Below are positions 38,629 through 58,640 of a DNA stretch of 64,000 nt, one piece after another. The notes beneath the pieces are model-generated. The model searched no databases. It saw only the letters and a list, made by a program, of their open reading frames with translations, and was not told where the DNA came from. The translations under genes and the position numbers were made by a program. Every line of letters starts with the position of its first letter. The first letter of the stretch is position 1. Origin of the DNA: Undaria pinnatifida (lineage: Eukaryota; Sar; Phaeophyceae; Laminariales; Alariaceae); the NCBI GenBank assembly GCA_012845835.1, contig JABAKD010000002.1, positions 7,682,603 to 7,746,602 of the forward strand, in the 5' to 3' direction.

Positions 38629-38926
38629 TTAATAAAACGGATCTTTGTAAGTTTTCTTCTTCGTCCCTGTGTGATGCCATAGCTTCGAACCGTCCTCGCG
38701 GTACACCTCCTTCCAGCGCCCGGAGGAGTGCTCTCCCCGCCCCTCCGAGGCGTTTTTATCTTCCCTTTTTCCGGATGGTGGCGAAGCCGGAAAGTTACCC
38801 CGGGATGGGTTGCATCCGCCCCCGCACCCCCCCCCCCACCCGCCACCCGCGTGTCTGACCGGAACTCTCGGGCAGTTGGCATGGATGAAGAGGTTGTAGG
38901 TTGACTCCCTTGTCACGTCGTTAGTC
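38629..38926 (-). CDS. Last exon of a WW-like domain protein
   Basis: On the minus strand a pyrimidine-rich tract and CGCGCAG precede G-ACT-AAC-GAC, and the frame runs 98 codons to a stop at 38629-38631. The exon opens in the middle of a WW-like domain: after an implied split Trp it reads TNDVTRESTYN, matching YDELTHETTYD in the gene at 56752-58640 at the same phase-2 intron position. A Gly-rich, then Lys/Glu/Ser-rich linker follows. A second WW-like domain closes the protein: RWKEVYREDGSKLW then HHTGTKKKTYKDPFY. Its first Trp, the Gly, the aromatic pair, the Thr and the final Pro fit the WW pattern, but Tyr replaces the second Trp. WW domains bind proline-rich peptides. The upstream exon with the first Trp was not found within 2.5 kb. 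Confidence 0.7.
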
Positions 38927-40640
38927 CTGCGCGTATGTGGGTATGGCGTGGGGTGGAGTGGTAAACGGAGGGAGGAGGGAGGGGGCGCACGCTACGGTAG
39001 GCGCACGTAATGTCCTCAAGGTTCTCTACCTGTGAGCCGGGCCTTCTCCGCTTTATTTATGCTAAAACATATGGTAAGCTATCTAAAACTCGGGGGGCTA
39101 TTTCTTTTGTTCGCCTTTCAAGTGATCCGGCATTTGGGTGACGAAAAAAAACATGTTGCCGGATTTTTGGACGGGACGAAACTCAATCGGGTAGGGTCCG
39201 GCAGGGCCAGGGGATGAGGCTCACGGAAGTTTCAAGTCGTGCCGAAGTCATGGGGTTGATCGCATTGTAGGGGCGTTTCAAGATATATTCTTGGGCCATC
39301 ATAAGTCTGGAAGCACACGAGGGGTACTTTCACATTCCCCACAAACCCCATACTGAAACACCAACAGTTTTATATTCATGTGGAGAAGGATATCCCTGCT
39401 TGCGAAACTATGTATACCTCATCTTCGATCTCACAGATGGAGAGCATTTCATTTTTTTTGTAATATATGGCTCACCGTACACCTGCCTTTTGACGAAAAA
39501 TGAAAAGTCACAACCCGATGATCAATCTCATGGTTTTCGAAGGTTCGTCCGACACAAAATGTAAGGAGTCGTGTACAGCAGTCGCGGTCCCTCGTCGGTG
39601 CGGGGCCTTGCCAGATGGCAGGAACGGCATTAAAGTGGGAACCCCGAACCAACCCAGGATAGATCGGTACTCTGTAGGGTGATAATAACGATACGAGCTA
39701 TTTTCACCGCACTGTACAGGGGTTCCCCCCTAAAGGATACCGCATTATGGACGCTCGCTACTGTCAAAGTGCTGCCGAGTGATAGGGAAACAGGAGGTGT
39801 CGGTACTGGGAGCAGGCACCGCTTCGCGTTGTGTAGCTTTTTCTCGTAGATTGCTTGTCTCTTATAGCTCAAGGATTGGTGCAAAACGTCAAGGCTCCAA
39901 GTGGCGGGGTGGGGCCGGTGGATCATAAGTCAACCCTCCGCCAAAGGACCGCTCCACGAACCTGAGGCGGTGTATCCATTTCAAGACCACCCCGTGACAA
40001 GCCAACAAACCTGGTGTTATCTTTTTCGGTATTATCCCTCTTGAAGACCGTTATGGCCTTTGTCCGGGACAAGACCGAAAACGGTCTTACATCGGAGGAA
40101 GAATGTCACGCACGCGATTGCTTCTTGGCCGTCTTGTGTCAAGTTAGGGGTCTTGTATAACTTGCACAGGCGTTATTACTGACTTAAGAACGGGTTCGGG
40201 GATCAGGCGTAAAAAATCGTCTTGTCTGCTTCTTTTTTCGTGATGAGCCGATTTTTCTGATCCTATCTCTAATATGGTCTTAAACCGGATGGCCTTAAAA
40301 TGGGTACACCACTGTTCCTTCATTTCTACAGCTAGACACGACACCACTCCACAACGAACGGAAGTGCCTCGCGAAACACACTATAAGCCCAACTGCACTG
40401 CGGTATACGACGTAGAGGCACATCTTTTGTAGTCTGAGGCTCCTTACATGGGGAGCTAGCTCCATTATTGCTCATCCAAAACCGTGCCCTGAGATAAAAA
40501 AAAAACTCGCGCAAGCCGATGGACAATCTCATGGTCTAGGTATACACCGATGAAATATTTCTAAAAACAAGGTTGAAATCCCGACGAAATGGTACGAAAT
40601 CGGTTAAGGAGAGATCCCGCCATTAAGAAAACAGATACCG
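38927..40640. other. Upstream flank or intron of the minus-strand WW gene
   Basis: No exon supplying the first half of the WW domain (a TG dinucleotide then GT donor after a W-x(11) pattern) was recognised. Fragments of family L (39420-39475) and family I (about 40430-40500) are present. Confidence 0.4.
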
Positions 40641-40656
40641 CTGTGCAAAAAAAAAC

Positions 40657-40913
40657 CCCGTGCTGCGATAGAGGTGGCACTTTTTTTTTCTCCGGATGAC
40701 GGGGCTCCTTAACCCAAATCGTCGGAAATACGCCCCATTTATTTTAGCATGCTCCTCGTTGTGTACTTAAGCCATGGGGATTTTTCTTCCGGTCGCGTTT
40801 TTTTTTCTTTCTCTCCAAATCAGTTTTTTTTTGTTGGAGAGGTCTTAATAAGCTCCCAAATTTTCGAAGAACCTCAGAAAAAAAAGTGGTGCGCACCTCC
40901 ATCGTAGCACGCG
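40657..40913. mobile_element. Family C MITE, near-complete
   Basis: Starts CGTGCTGCGATAGAGGTGGC and ends ACCTCCATCGTAGCACGCG, an inverted pair of about 19 bp. Inside is GGGCTCCTTAACCCAAATCG, the unoccupied form of the site that holds a family B insertion at 51946. Confidence 0.75.
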
Positions 40914-41160
40914 TCAATGGTTGAAACAGCTACGTACGGAAGGGTATGCGGTCTTAAAGGAGAGGGGTACGTGGTCTTGTTCACGGGAGGAGGGAATGTG
41001 TGTGGTCTTTCTCCTCCAAGTGACGGTGACTCTCGATTAGATTGCTTTGATTGGTGTTTATGTGGTGAGTGCCGTCAGAGGGGGGGGGGGGGGGGGGGTT
41101 GGACTCGAACCCACGAGGGTATTTGGCCTTTGGTCTGTGTGAAGCGGGGGCTACGAATTG

Positions 41161-41360
41161 GTCTCGATGGAGGTGGCACATTTTTTTTTTCTCGTTTCGT
41201 ATGATATCCTCGCTTTAGGAGCTCAAGACATGTCCTTCTTAACCCAACAAAAACTGATTTGGAGAAAACCAAAACCGCAGTCCGACGAAACAAAGCCCAT
41301 GGCCTATCTAGCTAGGTCTACAAAAAACGTAAACATTAAAAAAATAAAATGGATGACATC
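41161..41360. mobile_element. Family C MITE, partial
   Basis: CGATGGAGGTGGCACA then T-run, GGAGCTCAAGACATGTCC, AACTGATTTGGAGAAAACC. The right terminus is missing; it runs into a family D copy near 41365. Confidence 0.6.
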
Positions 41361-41810
41361 CCGACGATTTTGGGTGAAGGATAACGTAGGGTTGCACAGA
41401 CCAGGCAGGGAGGCGTTCGGTGGGGGGGGGGGTGTTGAGCATCGTGCATGCCTGCTCGTAATCTATTAGATCATTGGCCCTCGGCATCCCTGCCATGTCG
41501 GTGGGGGTGGGAAGGCAATCATCGTAGTCCGTACGACCATAGACCCTCGCATCCCTCTGGAATGCCGGGACGGAGCACGTCGGGTTGTCACCGACCAGGC
41601 AGGCATAAATACGGGCGCACCAATCGCGAAGCGCCTCAAGGTGTTCGTTGAGTTGCATGGAGGGTGAGCTGCGTCCTAGTACAAATAAGAACCGCTCGTG
41701 AGGTTGACCTTCGGTACCTTGCGCGCCCCTTAGCGCATATGGGTGACCGCGTCTGCTGACTTGTTTTTTTTTCTAGTTTTAGCCACTTCCAGAGACAGCT
41801 ATGGGTACGC
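41308..41810 (-). pseudogene. Coding-derived repeat family D, best-preserved copy
   Basis: On the minus strand a frame is open from about 41810 to 41308. It contains QVSRRGHPYALRGAQ, HERFLFVLGRSSPSM, QLNEHLEALRDWCARIYACL, VGDNPTCSVPAFQRDARVYG and RTDYDDCLP. The copy at 44141-44617 keeps the same frame (YERFLKACSLPFMRLAEHLT) before a stop. The copies at 38330 and 31023 are broken. A frame shared between diverged copies says the family descends from a protein-coding sequence, either a mobile element or a multicopy gene. I recognise no domain. The far 3' part runs into family C sequence, so the true end is probably near the C run at 41421. Confidence 0.5.
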
Positions 41811-42202
41811 AACGGAGCGGGGGCATAACCCTTTTTGACCATTATATAGTAGATGTACCTGGTATAACGTATTTTCCGCTTCGACGACGGAAAACACTGA
41901 ATGCCGTAAACTTGAAGCGTTGCATCATAGGGTTATGGATCTATCGATCGGTATCCTGACTCTAAAAATTTTTCGCTGGTAGTGGTTTTTGTTTTATCGT
42001 TTTCCCTCTAATATAAGAAATAATTAGAGTCTTGTAACAGCAGCATGAAGTAATCAATTTGCGTCCCGTCCCCCACCCTTCCGATCATAGAAGTTAATTA
42101 AAGTATTCAATTAGAATGAATTGATGATACTTCACCACCCCCTATAGCATAGCATGATATATATGTTGCTCGTCGCTTCTACCAACTTCGCACCTTTGCT
42201 TT

Positions 42203-42340
42203 TTCATTCTCCCTCCCTAGATCCGGGGTCACTAAGCAGGCTCTTCTATCCTCTCTCCGCCTCTCGGTACGCGCCTTCGTGTATTATCGCGAGAAGACTC
42301 TAGCTACTTCTTCCCTCGTCGACTCGCATCGAATATCATA
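42203..42340 (-). repeat. Family J, copy 4 (reverse)
   Basis: The reverse complement reads TTCGATGCGAGTCGACGAGG, TCTCGCGATAATACACGAAGG and GACCCCGGATC then AGGGAGGGAGAA, as in 9461 and 10741. Confidence 0.75.
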
Positions 42341-42453
42341 GGTACCATCCCTTTTTGCGCAAAAAATTGTTCATTACCAACAACCCCCCCTCAAAAAATA
42401 TAATAGTAATAAATATGAATTCATTGATTACACTATATTACCCCCCCCCCCCC

Positions 42454-43176
42454 GGGTATCAACGACGCGAGCTGGAATAAGATGGAATAACGTAGTGGAG
42501 AAAATATGGAAGGACTTAGGTGGAGACCAAGAAGAGGTACTGTCTATAGAGAAGTTCGGCGGGTGCAAGGCAGAAGTAAAAGAAAGAATAGAAGAAAGGG
42601 AACGGCAAACACTAAGAACCAAGGTGAAAGAAGAGAAGTACTCAGAGATAGATATACGGGGGGTTGAGGGAAGATATTGGAATGAAAACGTATCTGCACG
42701 GCCCAATGGACTACGCGCAAAATTTGAAACTGCGATTTCGTGCAGGGGACCTGGATCTACCAGAAAGAAGAGAAAGATATACCAGTAGTCGGGAGGAGGA
42801 AGACGTGGCTACAAATATGTGTCCGTGTGGCACAACAATAGAGGGTAGGACTCACATAGTAGGAGAATGTGAAAGACACAAGGAGGAGCGGGATGCATTA
42901 AAGAAGGGGATGAGGAAATTAGACGTGTGTGCCACGGAAGAGTATGGTAGACTAAAGAGTAGCGAGAAAACAATCGCCATCCTAGGAGCTAGAGGATGGT
43001 CGCAGACGGCGAAACAGAGCGGCGCTAGGATAAGCAAACGGTTTCTGTGTAGTATAGGGAAGAAGCGTAATAAGCGCCCAAATGTTGGAGGTGTCCCTAT
43101 CAGGGGTAGGAACGGTGCTTCGTCTCGAAAGGGATGCGTGGTCAATGGTCAAATAACGAAGGCAAGCAACAAATGA
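42454..43176 (+). pseudogene. Non-LTR retrotransposon 3' fragment (RT C-terminal region), frameshifted
   Basis: The piece begins straight after a 13-C run. In one frame it reads RWNNVVEKIWKDLGG and EEKYSEIDI up to about 42660. It then continues in the next frame (from about 42664) as MKTYLHGPMDYAQNLKLRF, a cysteine/histidine knuckle CPCGTTIEGRTHIVGEC, a charged helix, and a basic C-terminus to TGA at 43174-43176. The C-x-C-x(8)-H-x(4)-C knuckle near the end of the protein is typical of LINE-type reverse transcriptases. The catalytic core is absent, so this is a 5'-truncated copy. The frameshift falls at a run of six G (42658-42663), so it could be a real inactivating change or a sequencing slip. 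Confidence 0.65.
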
Positions 43177-43579
43177 GTACCGCCCCCACCTCCCCTACAC
43201 CCCGGGTTTTCGTTGGTTGGCAACGACGCTGTAAAACATGCCAACTACTTGCGTGAGCTAGACAACCAAGTTCACGTTTTTTATTTTATTTTTTTAGTGG
43301 CGGTTACCGTGATGGTTATCGAGTTGCCGAATGCTAGATGCCTGCCTCTCACCAGTATGGGTTATCATCACCATCGTAGGAAACGATCCAAGAACCGGCG
43401 CCTTTTCCCCCCTTCCCCCCTTTCCCCCCTTTCGCCCGTTTCTCTCCCTTGACTCGCTTGGAAACTTTGCCGTTACTCCAGTAGGTGGTCGAGGTCGTTT
43501 CTGCCACGAAACGACAAGGGATACACACGACAGAGCCAAACACCATTGCGTGGATACATTTTAACACGATCCCCCCCAG

Positions 43580-43697
43580 ATTTCGCGGCATTTTCAAAAC
43601 CAAGCTGGCATCAGCTACCCATGTCATGGCAGTTACAGCACGCGCCATCGTTGAAGGAACCCTCTTTTCAGACCAGAGACTCAAATTCTAACGTGAG
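43580..43697 (+). CDS. Possible internal exon, unknown protein
   Basis: The acceptor GATCCCCCCCAG ends at 43579 and a strong donor (CGTGAG then gtaagt) starts at 43698. One frame is open through to the donor (FAAFSKPSWHQLPMSWQLQH). Another gives FRGIFKTKLASATHVMAV and stops at TAA 6 bp before the donor. Which is used is unclear. No partner exon was found, and the 86-bp tandem array follows 118 bp later. Confidence 0.28.
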
Positions 43698-43814
43698 GTA
43701 AGTGCTGTCGCGTATTGTTCTGTACAGTGTTGGAACATGGACTCGCAAGCAATCTTCACAGGCGCTCGGTGCCACTCTTCTCACAGAGATAGAGCGTCGA
43801 CGCGCATCATTCTT

Positions 43815-44158
43815 CCAGGTTAGGAGCCTCGACACTTTATTGTTCTTTCAGGTTATGAGCATTAACGCGTATCACATTTTCATTGGTATAGCAGTATCTT
43901 CCAGGTTAGGAGCCTCGACACTTTTTTGTTCTTTCAGGTTATGAGCATTAACGCGTATCACATTTTCATTGGTATAGCAGTATCTTCCAGGTTAGGAGCC
44001 TCGACACTTTTTTGTTCTTTCAGGTTATGAGCATTAACGCGTATCACATTTTCATTGGTATAGCAGTATCTTCCAGGTTAGGAGCCTCGACACTTTTTTG
44101 TTCTTTCAGGTTATGAGCATCAACGCGTATCACATTTCCATTGGTATCGCAGTATCTG
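43815..44158. repeat. 86-bp tandem repeat, four units
   Basis: Units start at 43815, 43901, 43987 and 44073. Each has CCAGGTTAGGAGCCTCGACAC, TTTTTTGTTCTTTCAGGTTA, GCATTAACGCGTATCACATT and GGTATAGCAGTATCTT. Units 2 and 3 look identical; unit 4 has about three changes. Each unit carries two CAG-GT junctions. Confidence 0.97.
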
Positions 44159-44617
44159 ACGGGACTCAGCCGACCATCCGCAATGAAAACAGTAGCACCA
44201 TATCTCGATACAACAACAAAAAATCCCCGTGAACTAGTATTATCGCGTGGGGGACGGATGGAGCACAACGACCGAAACACATATCGAGCGATCCGTCGTA
44301 CACATGAGTGTTTTACTGCTACCAGTCCATGCTGCGAGGGCGGGTTGTACGGCTCCTTGTACCGTAGCTCCGGATTGCTACGTGTAGCTGATGCTGTACT
44401 CGTCAACCTTTCCCCCGGCGCCCGCTTCGCCCTGAACCCCAAAAATAGTTACCCCCCCTTGGCCACACCAGAAAACAAAGTGTACTCATTGGCGCTGTCA
44501 TCCATGAGAAAGAAAGTAGGCACAACGCGCAGAAGTCCGTCTTACGAACGGTTCTTGAAAGCATGCAGTTTACCCTTCATGCGACTCGCCGAACACCTCA
44601 CGGCGCTTCGCGCTTAG
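44141..44617 (+). pseudogene. Family D copy joined to a 158-codon frame
   Basis: The frame runs from the last 86-bp unit to a stop at 44615-44617. Its last 25 codons (RRSPSYERFLKACSLPFM then RLAEHLTALRA) match the frame of the family D copy at 41308-41810 and stop where that copy continues with W-C. After the stop, family D sequence continues to GAGTACACCC near 44727. The earlier part has an ATG at 44182 and is not recognised. Confidence 0.35.
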
Positions 44618-44954
44618 TGCAAGCAATGCCTGCCTGGTTGGTGAAAACCCGACATGCTCCGTCCCGGCATAGTAGGGATGCGATGGTCGATGGCCATTCG
44701 ACTACGGCCTTGCACAAACTGAGTACACCCTCCCCCCTTCCGGGCCCTCTTTGCCCCTGAATCCCAAAAATAGCTAAGAGGGGTCTCCTCAGGTTCAGCG
44801 AGAAAAGTCGTGCTACGCTGCTGATCAATGTTACGGTCGGGCTAGCACTTTTAGACGGGAAAAGCAAACAACCTGATGGGGTCACGTGACTGAGGAACTA
44901 CTACCCAACAATGCTGGAACATCGTGTGTGATTTTTACAATAAATACCGATATG

Positions 44955-45240
44955 GTTCGACGCGTGCCATGCGATAGCGATACGATGTCGTGCTTGTTTT
45001 GCAAAACTATTTTCTGAACGACGGAGATTCCTTTCTTGACCCAAACCCGTCGAAATTTCATTCTTTTTGTGGTTGGTCATCGGGTTTCACTTCAGTTTGC
45101 TCAAAAAACAAGTTTTTTTGAGAGCGATACTGAGCTCCTTAACCCCTTTAGAGCCCGAAAATCCCTCTCTATGTTATTTCCAAGCAATTTTTCCAGTTGT
45201 GCAGGCGTTAAGCAACCACATTCGCACTGCGTGATATGAT
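44955..45240. mobile_element. Family C MITE with family B insertion
   Basis: GACGCGTGCCATGCGATAGC, CGACGGAGATTCC, TCTTGACCCAAACCCGTCG and a T-run, ending in CTGAGCTCC, where the element at 45139-45211 is inserted. Confidence 0.6.
45139..45211 (+). mobile_element. TTAA-type MITE (family B), copy 4
   Basis: TTAA, CCCCTTTAGAGCCCGAAAAT and TTTCCAAGCAATTTTTCC, ending GGCG then TTAA. It is shortened by an internal deletion relative to the 82-bp copies. Confidence 0.75.
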
Positions 45241-45437
45241 CATTCCCCTTTGTGCGGAGTTAGGATTCTCCACCCCGCACAAAATTATCTAACTCGATAA
45301 CCATCATGGTGACTGCCAAAAGAATGGTGGTGGTGATGGTGGTCGGGGGGTGGGGGGGGTAAATCCATTACCCGGGGGTCACGCAAAGACGATCACGGTA
45401 TTTTTCCACTGCGGATACGAGCAGTGTGTGTGTGTGT

Positions 45438-45512
45438 TTAATTTCCCCTTTAGAGCCCGAAAATGCCTCCCTATACTATTTCCAAGTGATTTTCCAGTTG
45501 TAAAGGCGTTAA
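45438..45512 (+). mobile_element. TTAA-type MITE (family B), copy 5
   Basis: TTAA, TTTCCCCTTTAGAGCCCG and CCTCCCTATACTATTTCC, ending GTAAAGGCG then TTAA. It has the same internal deletion as copy 4 and lies about 300 bp from it, so the pair may reflect a local duplication. Confidence 0.75.
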
Positions 45513-46009
45513 GAAGCCACCCTCAGAGGGAAAATGGTCCGCCTCTGCCTTACATAGCATGTGTCAATCCGTGAGTATCTACAGCAGATTTTCCATTGTG
45601 TTGTTTTTTTCTCGTTTTTTTTTGTAGTGCTCGGACAAGGCACGCAAAGCTCCCAAAACTGAGGACCGTTGACCACGAAAAAAAAAATCGAGGTGCATTC
45701 CTACGGAGGCGCGTGCGTTTTTATAAAATGGCATCCCCAGCAGCGGCAGAGGTTGTGATGTTCTGCCCGATGTCACACGCACTTAACTCTTATCGTATTT
45801 GCATCGCTTTCCCTTTTGCGTACAATGAATATCGCGCTTGACCTCAAGAAACACGAAAGCTGGCCAAGGGCTGGATTTCTTATCCGACAGCAACTTCCAA
45901 CTTCGCTTCGACCGACCCTTCCATTGTCCGATGGCCTTGGAATCGCGTTGACGCATCGTTGCGGGTCAGCACAGAAGCCGTTTGACACATTCTACGATGA
46001 TATAGAAGT

Positions 46010-46253
46010 GAGCCACTTTTTTTCTGAAGTTCATTTTTGGGGGGGGGATCTTAAGACCTCTCCCCAAAAAATGATTTGGGGTTGAAAAAGGACTACTACT
46101 ACTACCGTATCAAAAATCCCATTTGCCTACGCACACAACGAGAACCATGCTAAAATAAATGGGGCGTGTTTCCGACGATTTAGGGTCAAGGAGCCCCGTC
46201 ATTCAGAAAACGTTTCGTACAAAAACGGCTGCCACTATCGAAGCACGCGTCGA
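46010..46253. mobile_element. Family C MITE, one terminus missing
   Basis: GATCTTAAGACCTCTCCCC, ATGATTTGGGGTTGAAAA, TTTCCGACGATTTAGGGTCA and CTATCGAAGCACGCGTCG in the family order. Confidence 0.65.
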
Positions 46254-46259
46254 AAATTT

Positions 46260-48370
46260 TATTAAAAAAATCTATCGGCGTCGGCTGTGAGTTCGATGAA
46301 ATCAGGGTCGATGCTCTCATACGAAGTATTTGCAAGCTGCGTCTGTTGGCACTTGTAGCATACTATGTGGGTGCGTTTTCTCACTTAATGGGAGGGGTCC
46401 TGTTATTTTATTTTTGTAATTTTTTTTGTACCTATAGTATTAAAATATTTAATACCAGGTATATTTTGTTTTTCTCCCCTATAGTGGTTGGTGTTGGTGT
46501 TTTAGCTCTAGGTGGTGAATTTTGAGCTAGATCCAAACGTAATATCTATTTGGTAAGTTTCAATCATTTAATCGGTTGTATTCACAGCTAGCTGACGTTT
46601 TTCAATTTTTATGAAATGTAGTATTACTGTAGTCTGCACCATACTGCTCTATCATATGTATGGTGGATGGTTTGCGGGTGGATGGCTTGGTCAGGGTTGT
46701 TGGTACTTGTGGTTCAATGCTGAGTTTATTGTTTGTAGAGTATAGCCTCTAGACTACTGTAGGAGGCGTATCAATCGGTGCAGGGGAAGATGTTTGACGC
46801 CCCCGAGAGCGACCGTCGATGCTTCCCCTTACGCTCGGGATGGTAAATGCATTAAAAATGTTGTTTACAATAGCTGTAGAAGACGTGCTGACATCGTATG
46901 TTGTTTAGTTTTGCGCCGCGGCGTCAGCCGTCAACCCTGTTGTGTACTTGCGTACTGCAGGTACTAGGTATTCATCTAGGGCCAATATCATGACCAAACA
47001 ACACCTTCGCTTCCGACTCTTCCATTGTCCGATGGTCTTCGAATCGCGTTGACTTAGCGTCTCGCGTCGTCAGCGCAGATTATACTCCCACGATATACCC
47101 GCGGTACTACGTACACAAAACGAACCGTAGCAGCGCGCCTACTGCACAATGGTGGTGTACCTTTCCGAGAAACGAGCTACTGCCGTGGTATCATATGATA
47201 GGTGTTCCGAGATTATCGTTATCTATGTACTGGGACACCGTTAGATGTCGCCGGGTACGCAAAAAAGATACGATCTTCGATATTTAGCCCGAGTACCCAT
47301 GGCATGCAAATTTACGAAAAGTGTACTTCGAAGTTTACCTTTCTAACAAAAGGGTGACCTGTGATACACTGTGGGTGCCTTTACCGCCTACTTCAAGAGA
47401 CCTTGCCTAGACGGGGGGGAAAAAAAATCACCCCTGGTGAGGGTGAAAGCGTCAGGTCGGTCCTGCCGGCTACTGCTGTATGATAGCCCTGCATACAACA
47501 GCAAGCAGCAGCAGCAGCGGATGTGTCGTTTACATTCGACGGTTGGTTGACCGGGAGGGGAATATCTTTATTCTTGAGACGGTTTATGGAGCTGCTACGA
47601 ATAGGACTGCAGCATGTGGTGTCACACGGATTAACCAGTACATTGTTTTTTATAAACAAAGCACATTGGTGTGATATGGCGTCGCGTGAGAGACTGGTCA
47701 ACCAAGCCGACCAGATACCTGGCCCAAATGATACCTCCTGTCCCCTCCAAAGAAAGGCCGCTTCTTCCTTGCAATAGGGGGTTTCTATCATCCCTGTATC
47801 TCCACGTTTTCTTCTAATGGGACGTATGCACAAGGTATGACGCAGGGGGGTGGGCCAGTTTCTCCTTAGACTATGCTTCTCGGTTTAGGCAAGCTAATAC
47901 CCCGCGCAGAGAACATCTGCAACAACTATTGCGGGCAAGACACATCTATACTCGTCGCACGCTGTCATGAACTCGTTCGGTATCTGAGCTAGCCGTGCTG
48001 CCAAACCAGACGCTGCTGAACCAAGGATCCACGGTGATATCAAACACGGGTATGATATATCAACGTTTTATTATACAATATATCAACGGTAGACGCCTCC
48101 AGCAGAACCGACAAAAGACACATACGTACCGCGACGTCGTACGATATCAACAATACCTTCGTGCGCAAGAGAACACACCAGCTAGCAATACTACGCACAC
48201 ACTGCTAGCCACAAGCTCGGCATCTGAGCTATAGTCTGGTGGCGGTGCTACCAAAGCTTTTCCCGAATCCTAGATGTAGACTGATATGTTCGCCTCGGAT
48301 CTTTCCGGGTTTTTTTGGAGAGGAATACGTACTTGTATGCTGTTCGAACGATACTCGCACAAGCTGCTGC
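46260..48370. other. No firm gene
   Basis: Family L fragments at 46285-46360 and 46560-46615. A block at 47010-47060 (GACTCTTCCATTGTCCGATG then GTCTTCGAATCGCGTTGAC) repeats 45915-45960. A plus frame ending near 48234 looks somewhat protein-like but lacks splice or motif support. Confidence 0.4.
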
Positions 48371-48381
48371 TGACTGCTTAC

Positions 48382-48448
48382 CGTCCTCCTCGTCTTCGTC
48401 TTCGTCTTCGTCAGATGGGCAGTAGTATTGTTCACGGGGCATCAGGCA
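48382..48448 (-). CDS. Internal exon with acidic Asp/Glu run
   Basis: On the minus strand a strong acceptor (CTGCCTTTCTTCCAG) precedes 67 bases ending at a strong donor (gtaagcag). Only one of three frames is open: CLMPREQYYCPS followed by an alternating Asp/Glu run, giving a phase-0 start and a phase-1 end. Acidic runs of this kind are common in nuclear and ribosome-biogenesis proteins, but one exon cannot assign function. Flanking exons were not secured. A candidate 25-nt downstream exon near 48155-48180 (acceptor ATTGCTAG, donor gtattg) would fit the phase but is too short to trust. Confidence 0.5.
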
Positions 48449-48449
48449 C

Positions 48450-50280
48450 TGGAAGAAAGGCAGGGCGAACATCGCGGTGGCTGTGTGTGGTGGTGGTGGT
48501 GGTGGGGCGTTGTCCTGTAGCACAGTGCTCGTAACTCTTATCTGTTGAGTCTACTACGTGCGCTGTGATCCCGATCAAAATAGGTACATGCCAGTTGCTG
48601 CTATCTATGCTATGTGCCCGTATCATATGGGCTGGTAAGCCGGAAGATAGGAGATAACTTGAATACGATGTGGTACGAGGAGGATATTTATTTCCCAAGA
48701 TTTTTCAGTTTTTGCGAGCGTTTCTCTGTTATTACGCCGCGTTTTTGTTCCTATTCGGCGAAATTATTGCCGGTTCGAGGCGAGTTTTCACGTTGCTCGT
48801 TTCTACTTGCTCCCTGGTCCCGTTCTCGTACGAGCCAGCTGTGTCGTTTGGATCGTGGTTGGACGATGTATGGTGTATGGACGCTGTGTAAGCTGCCCCT
48901 CAGCCGGATGGGACTATGATCTATCCCCTGGGCAGCTCTGCAAAGTCGCAAGGTATATAGCCTAGAAGACTAGTCTAGCTCGTTTGATCGCTGGCCGCGT
49001 ATTGTGGGCCCAGAAGACGAGCGATGAGCCGAACAACCCTCGGGAAAAACTAAAACACATTTCGCTACCGCAAGATCCTTCCATCTCTCTGAACGTTCAA
49101 TCCGGCCGGGGGCTCTATATCTTTCTCTACCACATAGTCTAATTACTCTGCACGACGACGTGGGCCTGCGCATGGCAGTGGTCAAGTGAGCGAGGGGGCG
49201 GCGGATCAGTAGTTGAGGTTTTCTCAACGATCCGTGGTGTCGCCTCTTTCATCTTCCTCAGTATGTTCTTGTTCGTCTTTGTCTTCGTGTTGTTCCCGTT
49301 CGTGTTCCAGCTGTTGCCTTCGTGTTCGTGTTAGTTTTTCATTGACCAACGTGAGGACGGCACTATAGTCTACTACTACTAGTCTACAGTAGTAGTAGCA
49401 AGCAGTACTTTCTTCTTGATCCAGATATTAGACTACATGGGTGCTACTGATAATCAACACTGTTTGCTGCCGACATGTGCTGCTGCTACTGATACTGTAT
49501 AGATCTAGACTAATAGCAGTACGGCTTTTAGCTACAGATATATCTGATGATGATACTGATACCGAGCTCCTTGAGGTGCTGATACTACTGGTGCAGATAC
49601 TACTACTGTAACAGTACAGTACAACAGTACTGATGTTGATACGGACACAGTTGCGGATACTACTGAATCATATGATGATACGGATACTAGTTACTACCGC
49701 TTCACAGATACTGCTGCGGCTCGTGACGGCGGGGGGGGGGATGACATATCGCCACCAAATAATTCCACTCGCAATGAACCGCAACATAGTAACGGCATCA
49801 CCTACGACGTATCCCCGGCACGAACCGGCACTTTTGCTGCAAAATTATCGACCCGAGGGGGTCGAATCGAATCGACCCGAAGCGCGTCACCTCGACTTAA
49901 TGAATGAGTGAAGGTAAACAAGCATATCGCCGCCAACCAATCACCACCTCACAGCAATGCGCGCATCGATCGCCGTCACGCTGTTGCTTTGATGATTGTG
50001 ATTGGCGTAAAACAAAGCAACTAACCGCGTCGTAGAATAAACAAATATATAATATCTCCCACGACCACACGATCAATCACAACATACTCCCCTAAACCGG
50101 GAACACCATCAACACCCAACGAAGTGGGGGTACCGCAAGTCAACACCACCACCGCCGTACGCCCTTGAGGGAGACATCCTCAACGCGAGAGGAGCACAGG
50201 TTGTGGGTCTTTTTTTTCCTGTGTTGTGAACGAGACATTTTTCCCGAGACGAACCCGCGGTATATATTGGCATCACGATC
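48450..50280. other. Probable introns or intergenic DNA
   Basis: No exon is secured. A degenerate GATACT/ACTACT repeat lies at 49500-49700. A short G run occurs at 49731. Confidence 0.4.
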
Positions 50281-50287
50281 ATCGCCA

Positions 50288-50479
50288 TCAGCAAGGGCTT
50301 GCTCTGTTATAGGTGAGTCCGCTTCTTGCCCTACGTCGTTGGTAGAGAAACTCGATGACCCGCGCGCGTTCGAAGATGAGCGAATGGTGCCGCTGCAGCA
50401 TGGTAGCCAACAACAGCTGAACAAGCCTGTTCTTCTCTCGAAGTTGACAGAGGGCCGCTTTGTCCGCATCATTCGGCAT
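50288..50479 (-). CDS. Possible coding segment, unknown
   Basis: A minus-strand frame starting at ATG reads MPNDADKAALCQLREKNRL, then VQLLLATMLQRHHSLIFERA, a helical, protein-like composition, and stops after 63 codons. No domain is recognised and no clean splice site bounds it. A donor on the opposite strand (GTTATAG then gtgagtcc near 50312) competes for this segment. Low confidence. Confidence 0.22.
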   Translation of the reverse strand: MPNDADKAALCQLREKNRLVQLLLATMLQRHHSLIFERARVIEFLYQRRRARSGLTYNRASPC

Positions 50480-50519
50480 GTTCTACCGACCGCATGTATA
50501 CTTGTATACATATATTGAT

Positions 50520-51680
50520 GGCTTCGTGCAAGCTTGTTCTTCTACAGGAGGGGTGTGAAATCAAACAGCTTCCAACGCCACGATCGCAACAGGTCGTATC
50601 ATTCTACCACAGCTACTCTTAGCTAAAGAGAGGAAGGACTTACCCGGCATGTTTTCGGGGGAAAATACCGACCCACTCGTATCCCAAACAAGTCAGAAGT
50701 TTGCATCCTATCCTTCGATCGCGCTTTGGATTGTATCCGCATGGATAGCGGGAAGGGCTCTTATCTACCGAGTACAACCGGCCTCCTGTCTGTGGCAGTA
50801 GATAACACGCGTACCTTTAGGACGTGCGCATGAATGAAGCAAAAAGGAAAACCTCAGGTATTTTTCAGTCAAGCCGAAATCGTCCACTGTATAGTCGTCT
50901 CTCCTTGTTGATCCTGACCCCTATGCACCATCCACGGAAGCCACCGGACCTATTTAGGGAACACGCATGCTATGTACATCCATTCGCGATGGATCTAGGT
51001 TATGGCATTGACGACAGGTGTGTAGACTATCACGTGTGCCTTATGAGTCTTACCTGAATCATGCTCGGCCGAGAGAGCTTCTTGTAAAAATCTGACAGAA
51101 TCGAAGAAAATACACACAGTTAGTCTACAGAGTAAAAAAAAATAGAATTGACCAGGTATACGCTCTCGTACTGCCGAGGAGACACGTGGTGCACACTTCT
51201 CGGCCTAAGCGTGGTCTGGTCTCCCATGATGGGTTAAGGGATCCCACCACAACACACCACACACGAACGTGAGGGCAGATCTCGACGCAAACCGAAGGAT
51301 CAAGCAACTTGCAAAAATCAAACATTGGTCTAAACAGCCACCGCTGACGTATGCACATACATGTGTGTATGTATGCATGATATGTGCCTCTGGTATACCT
51401 GATTTTTTTCATTTTTTTTGACGTTTCGATTTATTTTTTCGACAAAAAATGACCACTCAGCGGCGGAACACTGAACCATCCCCCTATGTGTGCCATAGAC
51501 AAGAAAAAAAAGCGCATATATGGTATCATCATAGGGAACGAAGGCACGTGTGATTCGCAGTTTTTTTCCAGAAGGTCATGAATGAAAAAAAGAACTCGTG
51601 TTAATTTAGTCCGGTAATAAAAGTGACACATGAAAACATGTATACTCGTACAGATAGTAGTACAGGACACCTCGTAGTAA
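50520..51680. other. No gene seen
   Basis: AT-moderate DNA with short frames only; no recognised repeat family beyond short oligonucleotide runs. Confidence 0.4.
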
Positions 51681-51687
51681 TAAGCAG

Positions 51688-51868
51688 GGGTTTTCACGGG
51701 TCGGGCCAGATCGGGCCGGGTCGGGTCGGGTCGGGTCGGGTCGGGTCGGGTCGGGTCGGGTCGGGTCGGGTCGGGTCGGGTCGGGTCGGGTCGGGTCGGG
51801 TCGGGTCGCGTCGGGTCACCCTGACTCGATCCGACCCGTGAGATTCGCGAAACGCCTACAGCCCGACC
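51688..51868. repeat. Fold-back family G, copy 2, with (TCGGG)n
   Basis: TTTTCACGGGTCGGGCC at the start and GACCCGTGAGATTCGC near the end are inverted. Between them (about 51716-51815) is a nearly pure array of about 20 TCGGG units, which are sporadic in copies 1 and 3. Confidence 0.85.
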
Positions 51869-51872
51869 CGCC

Positions 51873-52140
51873 GCGTGCTACGATAGAGGCATGGTATAGC
51901 TCTTTTTGGCTAACAGAGTTGTTGTGTGAATGACGGGGCTTCTCCTTAACCCCTTCACAACTGGAAACCCGTCTTTAGGGACAAAATTACTTGAATTTCG
52001 TATAGGGAGGGGTTCGGGGGCTCTAAAGGGGTTAACGCCGAAATCGTCGGAGTAGCAAAAAAAATGTTGTTTTGCAAAAGCGAACACTTCTTTAATACCT
52101 ACACTGTGTAGCTCGGCCGTGGGTTTGGTCATTATAATCT
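51873..52140. mobile_element. Family C MITE interrupted by family B
   Basis: GCGTGCTACGATAGAGGCAT, then ATGACGGGGCTTCTCC, the family B element, then CGCCGAAATCGTCGG and further family C sequence. The right terminus is not clear. Confidence 0.65.
51946..52035 (-). mobile_element. TTAA-type MITE (family B), copy 6, intact
   Basis: TTAA (51946-51949), an 82-bp element in reverse orientation (CCCCTTCACAACTGG to GGCTCTAAAGGGG), then TTAA (52032-52035). The same length as copy 3. The host family C has an empty counterpart at 40657-40913 (CTCCTTAACCC). Confidence 0.8.
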
Positions 52141-52409
52141 GATCTTCGCATTTCCAGTTTTACTACAAAAAAAAAAGTTTTTCGGGGGGGGGGGGGGGGG
52201 GGGTATACAAGTAGAGCTCCTCAAGCCACTGCCCTCAGAAAGAAGTTGAAATGGTTGGCGCACTGCTAGAGTTCTATTAATTAGTAGCGTGTTGTCACCC
52301 GTGCCGGCCCGTGAGAGGTATCGAACTCCGAGCTATCGCTTGACCCGATCTACGGTAGAAACTGTGTAAGTAGAGCATACACCTGCAAAAAAAGTGTCAA
52401 GAAATTTGA

Positions 52410-52702
52410 GACGCGTGCTATGATAGAGGTATTAAGGTATACCGTTTTTTGGCGAAAATAGTTATCTGAACGACGGGAGCTCCTTGACCCAAAATCGTCG
52501 GAAAAAAATAAAATAATGTGCCAATTTTTTTTGCACTGATTACCGTCGTCGTGTGCCTAGCCCGTGGGCTTTTGTCATCCGGTAGCGCAGATGTTCGTTT
52601 TTTTTTTTCGCTCCAAATCGGGTTTTTGGGGGAGGTCTTCTTAAGCTCTCAAATTGAGCAACCTCAGAAAAAACGTGGTGCACCTCTACATCGTACAACG
52701 CT
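52410..52702. mobile_element. Family C MITE, near-complete
   Basis: GACGCGTGCTATGATAGAGG at the start and ACCTCTACATCGTACAACGC at the end are inverted. The inside order matches 40657-40913 (CTCCTTGACCC site, CTCCAAATCGGG, GGAGGTCTTCTTAAGCTC). Confidence 0.75.
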
Positions 52703-53034
52703 TCCGCACGGATCATCCTGCTGAACCCCGCCAAATGTGTCCATCCGCAATTTATCGCAGCGGCTAATCAATTTTCCCGCACAAGAAAAAAAATTAGCTG
52801 TGTGTTTTTCCTCGGTCAATGTTTTGTTTCGTGGTTGAAGCTCGTGCTGTGCTTGCGTGGTCGGATATGGCGGCAAAAATATATCATGGCCAAGACTATG
52901 GTTGGGGTGTCATGTTTCAGGCGTTTTTCTTTTGGCAGTGCGTCGGGGTCACTCGCGCGAGTGACCTCCCCCCCGCTGTTCCGTTTGCGGTCTTTGAGCT
53001 TAAGAGGCGCCTGGCAGCAATTTTTAAGCATTTC

Positions 53035-53290
53035 CTGGACGACTCGAAGAGGCTCGCTCCTTAAGCCAAGATCGTCGGAAGCATCATTCTTTTTTCGATT
53101 TTGCAAAATGATTGTTTTCGTATGCCTGGGGCCACGCACGGGTTGGTTCATTGGGTTTCACTTTTGTTCAGCTTGCTCCAGAATCGATTTTTTTTTATTT
53201 TATTGTTTTGGCTTCTCAAGCGAGGGACACCCCCAGAAAAAAAAACCGCCAAACAAGAAAAAAACGGTGGACCTCTAGCGTAGCTTGTTG
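53035..53290. mobile_element. Family C MITE, diverged
   Basis: GCTCGCTCCTTAAGCCAAGA, TCGTCGGAAGCATC, GGGTTTCACTTTTGTTCAGC and GGACCTCTAGCGTAGC. A shorter piece follows at 53360-53470 (CCTCCTTGACCC). Confidence 0.55.
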
Positions 53291-53711
53291 TGTCGCAGCC
53301 ATATTTTTTATCGTGTAGTCGGTGCTTGTAGTCGACATGTAAGGCTTCGGCACTTGACGGCGTTACCGCGATAGATATCTACAACTTGGGACTTTTCGGT
53401 GGACAAGAAAAGGAAAAAAAAAAAAACGTTTTCTGAGGAACGGGCCTCCTTGACCCAATTTTATCGGAATGCAATTCTTGCCTTGCAATAATGTATATAT
53501 AGTCTATGTATGGATCGAGGCTACGACGGGGAGGGGTGTTATAATATATCCCTGTTTTCACTGTTTGCTGACTCGCATGAGCGACTCTCTGTACGTCACG
53601 CGGACAAGAGACTCTCTAGAGGGTGTCTTCCTGGCGCTGCGTGGCTGGTCATCACATTGCGAGTTCATATCGCAAGATGAAGACGGCAAACACATTAAGG
53701 CGCGGCAAAGG

Positions 53712-53820
53712 AGAACAGGGGGCGGTTCTGTTCACTAGCGCGCGTGACCGCACGAGAAAACAAACAGAGGGCGCTTCCGTTCGCTAGCGCGCGTGACCAC
53801 GAGAAACTAAAAAGACAGGG
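53712..53820. repeat. Roughly 55-bp tandem duplication
   Basis: TTCACTAGCGCGCGTGACC and TTCGCTAGCGCGCGTGACC are each followed by a CACGAGAAA block and an ACAGGGGGC or CAGAGGGCGC phrase. Confidence 0.8.
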
Positions 53821-54839
53821 GCGCAAAACGTGACCCCCGCACCATAGCCTCGTCGATACGATATATATATATTTTTTTTCACCTAGGCCGCGAATTTTGG
53901 TCACCGGGTTTTATCTTCGATTTACAGAAAAATATAACTCTTGGAGTACAGACTGGTTCACGTAGTAGACCCCCATTTAATTCCCCGGCGTGTGCCCACG
54001 CCGTTTTATTTCGACTCAGACCGTGAAATTTTGCGCGCAAGTCTTCTGTGTGCCATTGCGAAGACCTCACCTATCGTTTTTTTTGTTTTTTTTTCGTTTT
54101 TCGTTTTTTTCGGTCTGATGTCTTGTCAGTTGAGACTTTTTTGGAAAGTGTGGCGCCCCACCTTTTAGACCATTTTTTTTCGGCGAAAACAACCCCCCCC
54201 CACCCCCCCACCTCCGGAGGTCAGGCCTCGGGATGGGCATGTGGACCACATGTGCAAAATTCAGGTTCTGTCTCTCAAAAACGGCGTGGACATTTGGACT
54301 TCTGTGCGTAAAAATGAGTAAGATGCGTTATTTCCTTCAAACGACATGGTTTTAGCGTAAGATCCAGTTTTTTCGCCATATCCCCATATCCCGCTTAAGG
54401 TTGAACACGGGCAGGTCAGATCTTCGATTTTTGCCGCCCAAAAACATTCTACAGAGATGCCTTGGAGTGTACCTCCAACCGGTGCGTGCGAAAATGCGGT
54501 GCTATTCGTTCTCGCCTCCGCTTGAAAAAAAAAATGAATATTATTAAGATTATCAAGGCCTGTCATTGATTGGTCGATACCGGTGCGAGTTTTGTTCCTA
54601 CGTAGAGACAGCCCGAGGCCGCAGAAAAAAAAGCTGGCCACGTCACCTTCTTCCATTCGCCTTGGGGGTGAGTATGATACCAACTATTCACCCTTTGACT
54701 GGATATTGCGAGCGGTATTCCCAGGGCAGAGAATTTGGGGGTTTTACGTGAACCAGCCTGTGGCCCCGGGAAAAAAAAAAAGGTGCGCCCCTTTTTCCTT
54801 AGCATATGTCATTTATAGCATTCTCCGCTTGGCATACGA

Positions 54840-55215
54840 GACACTCGATGATAATCGACGAGCGAAAAAACGCTGAAGAGTTGGGAACGCCCTATCATGT
54901 ATGCGCGGTAAAAATGAGGGCACGTACCGGGAGGGGAGGGGAGGGGGGCGGGGGGGGGGGGGGGGGGGGGTGCGATACCTGTGACCACGGCTTGTCCAGA
55001 AGGTCGCCGAGGGTAAATAAAGCCTCTTGCAAGTTGAGCATAGTCACTCGATGATAATCGAGGAGCACTAACAGCTGAATAGTGGGAATGCTGAACCCTG
55101 TGTGCGATGAAAATGAAGGCACACACCGGGCAGGGGCGCCACGTGTGACCACGACTTTGTCCAGAAGGTCGCTGGTGGGGTAAAAACGCCCAACGAATTG
55201 AGTTGCGCACAAAAA
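54840..55215 (+). repeat. Family J-prime, two tandem copies, first with long poly-G
   Basis: CACTCGATGATAATCGACGA, AAAAATGAGGGCACGTACCG, a G-rich run (54929-54970), CCTGTGACCACGGCTTGTCC and GTCGCCGAGGGTAAA. A second copy from about 55048 has no poly-G (CGGGCAGGGGCGCCACGTGTG). Confidence 0.75.
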
Positions 55216-55796
55216 AAGTTATGATAAAAAAATACAAGAATCGTAAGACCAACTACTAGGGGAAGTTATTCTTGGGCCTCCAGAACTGAGTTTTTAGCCC
55301 GATAATACATTTTTACTCGAAGTCTCGGCCAAAAGCACCGGCAGACCCATCAGGATGCTCCCCGTAGTTTTTGTCCCGAGCTTTCTGGCCTAGTTTTCCG
55401 TCTCTCCAGAGCCGTAGGTTGAGAGTTCTTCTAATTTGTCGGTTCTAAGGGCATGGCGAGTTTTAGCCAAAACCCCTCGAAAATCAAATATTTTCGACCT
55501 CAGTTCCTACCAGCAGTACCCATTTCCATAAACTGATTGGTTGTGCCAGTAATCAAAACGATACCCCAGAGAAACGGAGAACTGCTCTAAACACCCCTCG
55601 GAAAACTACGGAGTGGGCCTTGAGGAGCGTATTTGTGACATAAGACAGTCCAGCCGAGTATAACATGTATATTTGGGTGACGATGCAGTGCTGAGAGCCA
55701 ATTTTTTTTTTACCGTGGTAGCTGGTCGACAAGTACAGCTGCTGAGAGTCTAGATTTTGTAAAAAAAGCCTTGCTCGTAAGATTCGGGTGTCACTT

Positions 55797-55808
55797 GCTG
55801 TTGTTGTT

Positions 55809-55891
<83 letters not shown>

Positions 55892-55926
55892 CGTCGTTGT
55901 TGTCGTTGTTGTTGTTGTTGTTACAG

Positions 55927-56021
<95 letters not shown>

Positions 56022-56110
56022 GCTGTTGTTGTTGATGTTACAGTTGCTGTTGTTGTTGTTACAGTTGTTGCAGTTGTTGCAGTTGTTGCAGTTGTTGCAG
56101 TTGTTGATAC
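55797..56110. repeat. (GTT)n microsatellite, about 310 bp
   Basis: A GTT repeat with sparse TTACAGTTG and GTC interruptions; GCAGTTGTT units at the 3' end. The complement of the motif at 26643. Confidence 0.97.
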
Positions 56111-56751
56111 TACTAGTAGTATTGGTATTGCCCTTCGACACCGTAGCGTAGATGCCGTTTCGATAGAAATCGAACGTCCATTTCCCAATTTCCCTTTCCG
56201 CGCATCACCTAGCCCATGGCATGGAATACACAGCATTTCTCGAACACGGTTGCTGGATGAGGTGCGTACAGAACTCCTCTAGCTTAGGATGCCATAACAA
56301 AAATCGTCGCGTCTCGTACCTTCATCGTGGCACGCGGCAAAATACGCTTTGCAGAAAATGCTTCATTTCAGCGTGGCGATCAGAGCTGTTCCGCCACGAC
56401 CACTCGACTGCGTTTCCACGATCGAAGCTGTTTTCGAGCAATATTATCGCATCACAGCTAACTGATGCTCCTCGCATACCTACCTTCAATCTTCCCCCCC
56501 CCCCCCCCGTGTTAGGCTTGCGCTCGCGTTTTGGTTTTTTGTCTGCTGCTATTGATGTTCGCCTCAGACGCGGCATGTAAAAAACATTTCGTGCACGCTC
56601 GGTTTTCTTCGAACGGCGTTGGTGGTGACGTTGTTGCTTGATTTTCTTCCCCGGACTCGTTTTTTTTCGCAGGGCGGAACGTCGAGGTCGTCATAAGGAG
56701 GAGCAAAGCGCGAGCGGCAAAAACTAAATTCACAAGCCGAAAGATTCGAAA

Positions 56752-58640
56752 ATGACTTTTTCGCGAATCACTGCCATGCGAAGGGGGCGATACGAGGCCA
56801 CCGAGGCCATCGGGAAATGGACGGCTGCGTACGACGAGAGCGGGCATATGTTCTGGTAAGCTTTGCGAAGTTAGGGGTTAGGCTTAAGCTTGGGGTTCGA
56901 GTCACCAACCATTGTTTTTTTTTCCGACGCGTGCTACGATAGAGGTGACACAAACACATTTTTTTTGCCTAATACTACCCCTCAATTTGGGAGCTTAAGA
57001 CATACCTCTCCTGAAAAACTGATTTGGAGAGAGAAACAAAACTGCTGACTGGGGATGAAAAAAAAAAAAAAACATGGCCTCGTATACAACGAGAGAACCA
57101 GGCAAGAAAAAAAAATGGCGAAAGTTTCGACAATTTTGGGTTAAGGAGCCCTGTTACTCAGAAAAACATTTCAGCCAAAAAGAGGGGTATACCTTACTAC
57201 GTCTATCGTAGCACGTGCCTTATATAGACTAGTGGGCGCAACAGATTTCTAAGAATTTTCTGAGCGCCCAAAGATGAGGAGCTAGCTCATTATCAACATC
57301 ACCCGAAACATGACTTCAAAGGCGTTCTTCGTTCGCGCAACCCCACCAAAATATCTATTATGTGCTCACCGGTGGTCCCTAACTTTGAGAAGCTCAACAG
57401 GCCAGGTATACCTTCCTTTTGGCGCAAAAAAAGAGCTACCGTGGGACGACTCGCTAGGGTTAGGTTTAGGCTAGGTACGGTTAGAAACTTATACGAAGGT
57501 TGTTGCCCAACCAAGCACGTGAACCTCTCCTCCTCTCTCCTCTCCCGCCACCAGTCGTTTCCGTTGGGTCTCCGATCCTTTAGCTTGTTGTGTTCAACGC
57601 GTGACAAAAAACAACGTGCCCATAGAAACCAGGGCTTTTCACGCGTCATGCCCCGGCCCGCGGGTCGCACCAGGAGGTTTCCAAACCCTTGCGGGGTCAG
57701 ACCGGGTTAGGTCAGGGGGTGTTGGAAATGTCATCTTGCGGGTCGGATCGCTCCGGGTCAGGAGGGCTTCAAATCTGACGGATTGGGGTCGGGTCAACCT
57801 GACACGATCCGTCCGACCAGGCGAGACGTTATCTGAACCGTGAAAATTCCTGAAGAAAAACGATACATACAACCACGCCGGCAACGACAACTTTCAATCG
57901 TTACGAGTCGTGCTTTGGTTCAAGTTACGAATCGTGGCATGCATTCGGCGTTCGTTAGTTCAGCATGATTCCGGGTACACGCTAGTTTGTCCCGTGTATC
58001 ATGGAATATTTTCGAAACCAACTGCTTCGGGCTTCAACCAACCCCGTTGTCGATTCGCAGGCACCATAATATCGCGAATACCGCTCATTTCATCGCTTCC
58101 TCTGCACGCCTCTTTTTCGTCCTCAGGTATGACGAGCTCACGCACGAGACCACGTACGATCCCAGTGCCGGCAGGCGCCACCCCCAGCCCCACCAAGTCA
58201 TGTCTCATACCGCGCTCTTCGCTAGAGGCTCAACCAACGGCGCCGCCCACATGCCGCACGTGTCGCCGCCAGACGGCGATTATCTGATGCCTCTCTCGAG
58301 TCGCGCTTACCCGTACCCAGCGCCGGGGCAAAACGTTGGTGGGTACGTCACATCGTCTGGGCACATGGTAAGCGCGAGACCTCCATCCTACGCCGAGACA
58401 TCCTCGCGCTTCTCCCCCCTCCATCGCCAGCACGGCAACCACCACCAGCAACACTATCAGCACCCGCACCAGCAGCAGCACTACCAAGGCCAACACCAAC
58501 ACCAGCTCGGGCGTCACGCGTACCCGGGAGTGACCTTGTTCAATGGGTACCGTTGGGAGGAGTGCTTCAAGATGGACGGGAAGAAATTCTGGCGGCACAA
58601 GGAGACCGGCGCCATCGTGCACAAGGATCCTTACCGCTAA
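56752..58640 (+). CDS. Two-domain WW-like protein, two exons (56752-56855, 58127-58640)
   Basis: Exon 1 starts at the first ATG after an in-frame TAA at 56725 and ends ATG-TTC-TG at the donor gtaagc. Exon 2 starts after CCTCAG with G-TAT-GAC. Spliced, it gives 205 residues and a TAA at 58638. The phase-2 intron splits Trp35. The first WW-like domain spans W23 to P47: G31-x-x-F34-W35, D37 at the usual Asn site, T40, Y45 for the second Trp. A His/Gln/Pro-rich, probably disordered linker follows (about 48-174). The second domain ends the protein: W178, G186, F189-W190, T195, H200 for the second Trp, P203. WW domains bind proline-rich motifs, and PPSY in the linker could be a ligand. The 1,271-bp intron holds family C, I and G repeats. 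A possible 5' UTR acceptor (TTTTTTTTCGCAG) lies near 56673. Partner gene: 38629-38926. Confidence 0.78.
56926..57218. mobile_element. Family C MITE, near-complete, inside the WW gene intron
   Basis: GACGCGTGCTACGATAGAGG and GTCTATCGTAGCACGTGCC are inverted ends. Inside are GGGAGCTTAAGACATACC, ACTGATTTGGAGAGAG and TTTTGGGTTAAGGAGCCC. This copy gives the clearest termini of the family. Confidence 0.8.
57235..57440 (+). repeat. Family I copy inside the WW gene intron
   Basis: AACAGATTTCTAAGAATTTT, CTGAGCGCCCAAAGATGAGG, AGCTAGCTCATTATCAACAT, TTCGTTCGCGCAACCCCACC and AGCTACCGTGGGACGACTC. Confidence 0.7.
57628..57852. repeat. Fold-back family G, copy 3, inside the WW gene intron
   Basis: GGGCTTTTCACGCGTCATGC at the start and ATCTGAACCGTGAAAATTCC at the end are inverted. 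The interior has CGGGTC-type units like the copies at 30055 and 51688. Confidence 0.7.

Follow-up and report, generated by a model that had tools for sequence, protein, structure and literature searches.

Two WW-derived genes of the brown alga Undaria pinnatifida, their shared phase-2 intron and their relatives in the genome

The window analyzed here is a stretch of 64,000 nucleotides from the brown alga Undaria pinnatifida (NCBI GenBank assembly GCA_012845835.1, contig JABAKD010000002.1, positions 7,682,603 to 7,746,602 of the forward strand; the contig is called C26 below), and positions given without a contig name are counted from its first letter. It holds two predicted genes, gene A on the plus strand and gene B on the minus strand, each of which encodes two domains resembling the WW domain. 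In both genes the first of these domains is cut by an intron and the second forms the end of the protein.

Two genes with a split first domain

The features of the two genes are as follows:

56752..56855, plus strand: gene A exon 1, from the first ATG (taken as the start codon) onward, with the first half of WW-like domain 1
56856..58126, plus strand: gene A intron, 1271 bases, phase 2, GTAAGC...CTCAG
58127..58640, plus strand: gene A exon 2, with the second half of domain 1 (to 58163), the linker, domain 2 and the stop
58554..58631, plus strand: C-terminal WW-like domain 2 of gene A (W...DP), top six-frame match to canonical WW
43353..43648, minus strand: gene B upstream exon, 3' end at 43353, with 43648, where the open frame has its first ATG, as provisional 5' limit
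38927..43352, minus strand: gene B intron, 4426 bases, phase 2, GTGAGA...GCGCAG
38629..38926, minus strand: gene B last exon, with the second half of domain 1, a Gly-rich linker, domain 2 and the stop
38638..38715, minus strand: C-terminal WW-like domain 2 of gene B (W...DP), second-best six-frame match to canonical WW

In gene A, a Trp codon of domain 1 lies at 56818, and the predicted join 56855/58127 has GT...AG ends, keeps the frame over a phase-2 intron and gives a protein of 205 residues which has a linker rich in His, Gln, Tyr and Pro and ends in KDPYR. This join was evaluated in a scan of the GT-AG pairs of the window on both strands with introns of 60-8000 bases, using a matrix for which eight canonical WW domains encoded in the same genome, all from outside the family of genes A and B, were the sole source. 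A pair was retained when both halves had positive scores that together came to more than 8 bits. Among the 363 pairs retained, the gene A join ranks first with 33.8 bits, and the highest-scoring pair that shares no splice site with it reaches 20.3. The exons, the phase-2 intron after the TG of a Trp codon and the length of 205 residues proposed for gene A by the first-pass annotation are thus borne out as far as the sequence can tell.

The last exon of gene B had been described correctly as 98 codons plus a split Trp with the end KDPFY, and its upstream exon had gone unseen. This exon is Lys/Gly-rich, then enters the first half of domain 1 (43390-43353) and ends ...KGAGSWIVSYDGDDNPY-TG/gtgaga at 43353, the slash marking the splice site. 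The predicted spliced domain 1 reads GSWIVSYDGDDNPY/W/TNDVTRESTYNLF. The join 43353/38926 is supported by an uncut relative on another contig, since at C31:7990796-7991122 both domains lie in a single stretch without an intron, the second being broken by a TAA, and the first domain of this copy aligns with spliced gene B over the join at 57% identity (E 1.4e-5, whole genome). With the uncut copy as query, the gene B join ranks first of 628,117 phase-and-split combinations with a score of 102, and the next candidate (76) uses the same donor. A retrocopy origin of the C31 copy was considered and dropped, as no A run of at least 8 occurs in the 3.1-kb locus; such an origin would look the same as intron loss.

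Genes A and B thus have in common a GT-AG intron of phase 2 that splits the second-strand Trp codon of the first WW-like domain behind its TG, and a second WW-like domain after whose DP the protein stops two residues later, in line with the one to two residues after Pro read previously. When the window is scanned in six frames with canonical WW, their C-terminal domains come out as the top two matches (22.3 and 17.3 bits; third 14.7, so that gene B stands 2.6 bits clear). The domains of A and B are 33% and 27% identical, the latter figure being that of the first domain, and no shared DNA was found between the two introns among the repeats listed for 36000-60000 (seed 14, length at least 40).

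Some further features lie next to these genes. Within the gene B intron, an open frame of 174 residues on the plus strand (42652-43176) has a Cys-rich CxC...H...C stretch, which we take to be like the tail of a reverse transcriptase of the long interspersed nuclear element (LINE) type; a Pfam search of 42664-43176 gave no match. Just upstream of the first exon of gene B is an 86-bp tandem repeat (43811-44157, 4 copies, 98% matching). On the minus strand, a frame of 227 residues (55553-56236) directly upstream of gene A contains a TTG trinucleotide array (55795-56106) and likewise had no match in Pfam.

A family of ten loci

The genome (511 Mb in 68 contigs) was searched with the full protein and with single domains. 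The family, counted as loci with the C-terminal domain, comprises ten of them, five on C26 within a span of about 510 kb that includes A and B, four on C2 and one on C31:

C26:7371971, minus strand
C26:7465872, plus strand, with in-frame stop
C26:7721234, minus strand, gene B
C26:7741153, plus strand, gene A
C26:7881737, minus strand
C2:10640085, plus strand
C2:18251780, plus strand
C2:18261800, plus strand
C2:18275420, minus strand
C31:7991030, plus strand, with in-frame stop

A frameshifted copy at C26:7466088 beside C26:7465872 was counted with it as one locus. The small family of two envisaged by the first-pass annotation is therefore too small. Several weaker matches were left outside the count, namely C57:3631169 (E 0.52, one stop), C38:10817479 (E 1.51), C35:4826077 (E 6.6) and ten further ones with E 1.64 to 9.13. 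Eight of the ten loci have an intact C-terminal frame, in-frame stops being confined to C26:7465872 and C31:7991030, and all eight intact loci end two residues after DP, the last two residues being YR, FY, LY, LW, YK, YV, YI and YV.

The loci are connected by matches of gene B to C31 (E 4.5e-4), of C26:7881737 to C26:7371971 (E 7.9e-6), of C26:7371971 to C26:7465872 (E 0.00135) and of gene A to C26:7881737 (E 0.0078). Three of the C2 loci form a trio with internal matches of E 2.7e-17 and 1.2e-14. A profile of the C26 set compared with one of the C2 set gives a score of 45.7 (97.1%), as against 25.7 and 29.2 for the comparisons with canonical WW, and because the two profiles match each other better than either matches canonical WW, the C2 loci were kept in the family.

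Four of the ten loci show the two-domain architecture, which is evident in A, B and C31 and probable for the C2:10640085 gene. In the last of these, a first domain half ends at 10633012 (EWKQVQDPYGRLC-TG/gtgagt) and a second half begins at 10639183 (WQSSKTGQVTYG). The join, scored with the gene omitted from the matrix, is the best in its 8-kb stretch (20.6 bits, next 11.5), agrees with the joins of A and B in column and phase and would span an intron of 6170 bases, which suggests that this gene probably carries the same split first domain. Inspection by eye added a phase-1 intron within its linker and connected the gene to its C-terminal domain. The phase-2 intron is thus present in A and B and probably in the C2 gene, is absent from the C31 copy and was not located in the other six loci. 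No first-domain exon of C26:7881737, C26:7371971 or the C2 trio turned up in the stretches read; for the broken C26:7465872 locus, the reading covered its 3.1 kb only.

In the C2 trio, an exon preceded by a phase-2 acceptor (L053 position 9732, with a matching exon in L037 and L049) begins with QHSVTGAFWNPF or HYPAAGACWPPC; the acceptor precedes QHSVTGAFW or HYPAAGACW, the second of which was read by eye. This exon may represent the latter half of a first domain that has retained its Trp. A phase-0 WW-like junction of 21.0 bits, ending in a canonical Trp, was noted at C26:7881700-7889699 (reverse-strand positions 2912/3328), about 5 kb upstream of C26:7881737. It may be due to chance and is not claimed as the first-domain exon of that locus.

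Taken together, A and B are supported as old paralogues, and their paralogy and identical intron position and phase, proposed from the sequence at first reading, are strengthened by the uncut C31 copy and the probable third gene. As the first domains of the C2 gene and of gene B are just 21% and 27% identical to that of gene A, the shared intron probably predates the duplications of the family.

Coding constraint was examined in the C2 trio by the Nei-Gojobori method, a crude test with few changes to count. Comparison of the most divergent member with the other two gave omega values of 0.31 and 0.32 for domain 2, each from 7 non-synonymous and 6 synonymous differences, and of 0.69 and 0.50 for the linker. 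The young pair is uninformative, its copies of domain 2 differing by 2 non-synonymous changes and no synonymous one. These values favour real coding sequence with the domain more constrained, and they bear on A and B only through the family membership of the C2 loci.

No relatives were found in viral contigs, the sole collection searched beyond the genome itself, and a limited literature search returned no title on a WW-derived family of this kind. Elsewhere in the window, a 226-bp unit at 24218-24669 is present in two copies and was duplicated recently, as the copies are 100% matching; neither Rfam nor a tRNA scan gave a match in the window. Among the Pfam WW matches listed for the genome, five each fall within about 15 kb at C22:9527180-9542205 and C27:19386077-19401280, forming local arrays of WW exons or WW genes that lie outside the family described here. 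The EsV-1-7 domain is expanded in brown algae, and its repeats are abundant throughout this genome as well (all 150 scored candidates match, of 2155 candidates; none in 14 control genomes).

WW ancestry and signature residues

The WW fold is held by the first Trp, an aromatic residue in the second strand and a final Pro packing against this Trp; the second Trp makes up the ligand groove. In the family, the first Trp is kept in all domains. Two signature Trp some 20-23 residues apart, by which WW domains were tested, are not found, the second being absent from all ten C-terminal domains (six aligned, four read by eye), where its site is taken by His, Tyr, His, Ile, Pro, Tyr, Tyr, Tyr, Met and Ser, and being Tyr in all four first domains. 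The second-strand aromatic of the C-terminal domains is Trp in seven of ten, the C2 trio having Tyr instead, and all ten retain DP. Since first Trp, aromatic and DP are kept and the second Trp is gone, domain 2 appears to have retained the fold side and lost the groove side. In domain 1 the groove site retains an aromatic, and the final Pro, present in A, is Leu in B and C31 and absent in the C2 gene.

Profile comparisons point to WW ancestry beyond chance for both domains. By hhalign against eight WW domains of the same genome, domain 2 reaches 91.6% (E 8e-7) and domain 1 95.1% (E 3e-8), the E-values being those of a single comparison. The domains resemble the Pfam model PF00397 in the first Trp, the aromatic second strand, mostly a Gly before it, the Thr and, in domain 2, the Pro. 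None of the scanned pieces reaches the Pfam cut-off of 26.9 bits, which gene A domain 1 approaches with 23.9 bits (E 4.4e-5) and gene B does not (10.3 bits, E 0.75, not significant); for five other pieces nothing was reported. None of the ten loci is among the 65 Pfam WW matches listed for the genome (150 of 163 candidates scored).

The predicted structure of gene A domain 2 has strands at 12-16 and 22-26 and a two-residue third strand at 32-33, with a mean predicted local distance difference test score (pLDDT) of 75.9 and a predicted template modelling score (pTM) of 0.46, so that as a prediction it forms a three-stranded antiparallel sheet. The leading Foldseek rows and VIA rank 1 for this model are WW domains, at E of at least 0.18 and Z of at most 4.3.

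The proposal of the first-pass annotation that the genes encode two-WW adaptors therefore stands with regard to ancestry, on the profiles and the predicted domain 2 structure, and is to be used with care as a functional label: as all ten C-terminal domains lack the second Trp, an ordinary proline-peptide adaptor function cannot be assumed.

Possible roles and known WW proteins

We consider it probable that the loci form a birth-and-death family of small WW-derived two-domain proteins. The protein, if expressed, would consist of a basic or low-complexity N-terminal part, the intron-cut domain 1, a variable low-complexity linker and the terminal domain 2. With Tyr at the second-Trp site, domain 1 would have a partial aromatic groove and, if it folds as a WW domain, might weakly bind proline-rich or hydrophobic peptides. 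Domain 2, having no canonical groove, could be a structural or pairing module by analogy to WW2 of SAV1, and the whole protein could act as a small bivalent scaffold.

The closest sequence-profile matches of both domains are the WW pairs of Prp40/PRPF40A/FBP11, which also have two WW domains per protein; WW1 of FBP11 is the best structural match of the gene A domain 2 model, and Prp40 is the first match of the whole gene A protein, but at E 0.14. Unlike Prp40, A and B lack the second Trp, have a low-complexity linker and end with domain 2, gene A encoding a mere 205 residues. Prp40 has FF domains; by Pfam none is present in gene A or in gene B from its first WW-like domain onward. Like domain 2, WW2 of SAV1 is without the second Trp. 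It is an atypical second WW domain in a two-WW protein and forms a homodimer that buries its own ligand site (PMC5663475, PMC6131212). Unlike in SAV1, no SARAH domain was found by Pfam in the A and B proteins, the latter again from the first WW-like domain onward. WW2 of KIBRA has Ile at the conserved Trp, as does C26:7371971, and accepts motifs departing from PPxY, showing alone no detectable binding to one target and in tandem reading a hydrophobic-x-Tyr motif (PMC6744271). The KIBRA domains are a tandem, whereas about 50-130 linker residues separate the two domains of this family.

A more far-reaching suggestion, which we regard as possible but doubtful, is that the WW domains were converted, keeping the fold residues and giving up the groove (fully so in domain 2), and that the pair acts by domain-domain pairing instead of proline-peptide docking. 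The idea that the linkers serve as self-ligands (PPSY in gene A, PPGY in the C2 gene) was rejected, as PPxY occurs in two of seven linkers (P 0.084 by shuffling).

It is unlikely that the proteins are ordinary two-WW adaptors in which both domains bind PPxY-type peptides and substitutions of the second Trp are tolerated. The WW ancestry of both domains would suit such a role, as would the Tyr of domain 1, which one of the eight canonical WW pieces of the genome (L002) shares at this site, and the tandem binding by the Ile-containing KIBRA WW2 just mentioned. However, no C-terminal domain has the Trp, and since the replacements include His, Pro, Ser and Met, the groove residue is unconserved even in kind; nor is PPxY any commoner in the linkers than in shuffled sequence.

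Rather improbable, too, is the explanation that A and B are mostly pseudogenes of a once canonical two-WW gene and their similarity is residual. The two loci with in-frame stops, one of them beside a frameshifted duplicate, speak for decay, as does domain 1 of gene B, which lost the Pro and scores poorly. Against this, eight loci have kept the C-terminal frame, the DP and the stop two residues on, A and B retain open frames and intact GT-AG sites despite their low domain identity, and in the two wider comparisons of the C2 trio domain 2 is more constrained than the linker.

Several observations weigh against common descent of these genes as such. Direct matches between A and B are weak (E 1.49, 0.056, 0.050), for which reason they were dropped as proof of paralogy in favour of links via other loci and the profile comparison; single-sequence matches of the C2 loci to A or B are weak as well (E 0.2 to 3.75). 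With the canonical WW matrix alone, the gene B join ranks 14 of 363 (16.6 bits), so that this test cannot separate it from chance. The score of the C2 join is not decisive, because 21.0 bits are reached by the unclaimed phase-0 candidate in one of six other stretches scanned, and because the joined C2 domain, used as query in the genome, matched itself alone. That A and B are unrelated and that each came by its WW-like stretch and the phase-2 intron in it through coincidence is nevertheless very improbable and disfavoured in view of the stronger links from B to C31, from A to C26:7881737 and from there to C26:7371971, the profile comparison and the common C-terminal ending of all intact loci.

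WW domains are normally filed by their two Trp as proline-peptide docking modules. A multi-copy family which keeps the fold and drops the second Trp, with copies that range from intact to broken within one genome, would be a natural test of what a WW domain does without its groove. As the Pfam WW model passes over all ten loci, such genes may be missed in the annotation of brown algae, and the family described here adds something genuine, if modest, to a protein type already known.

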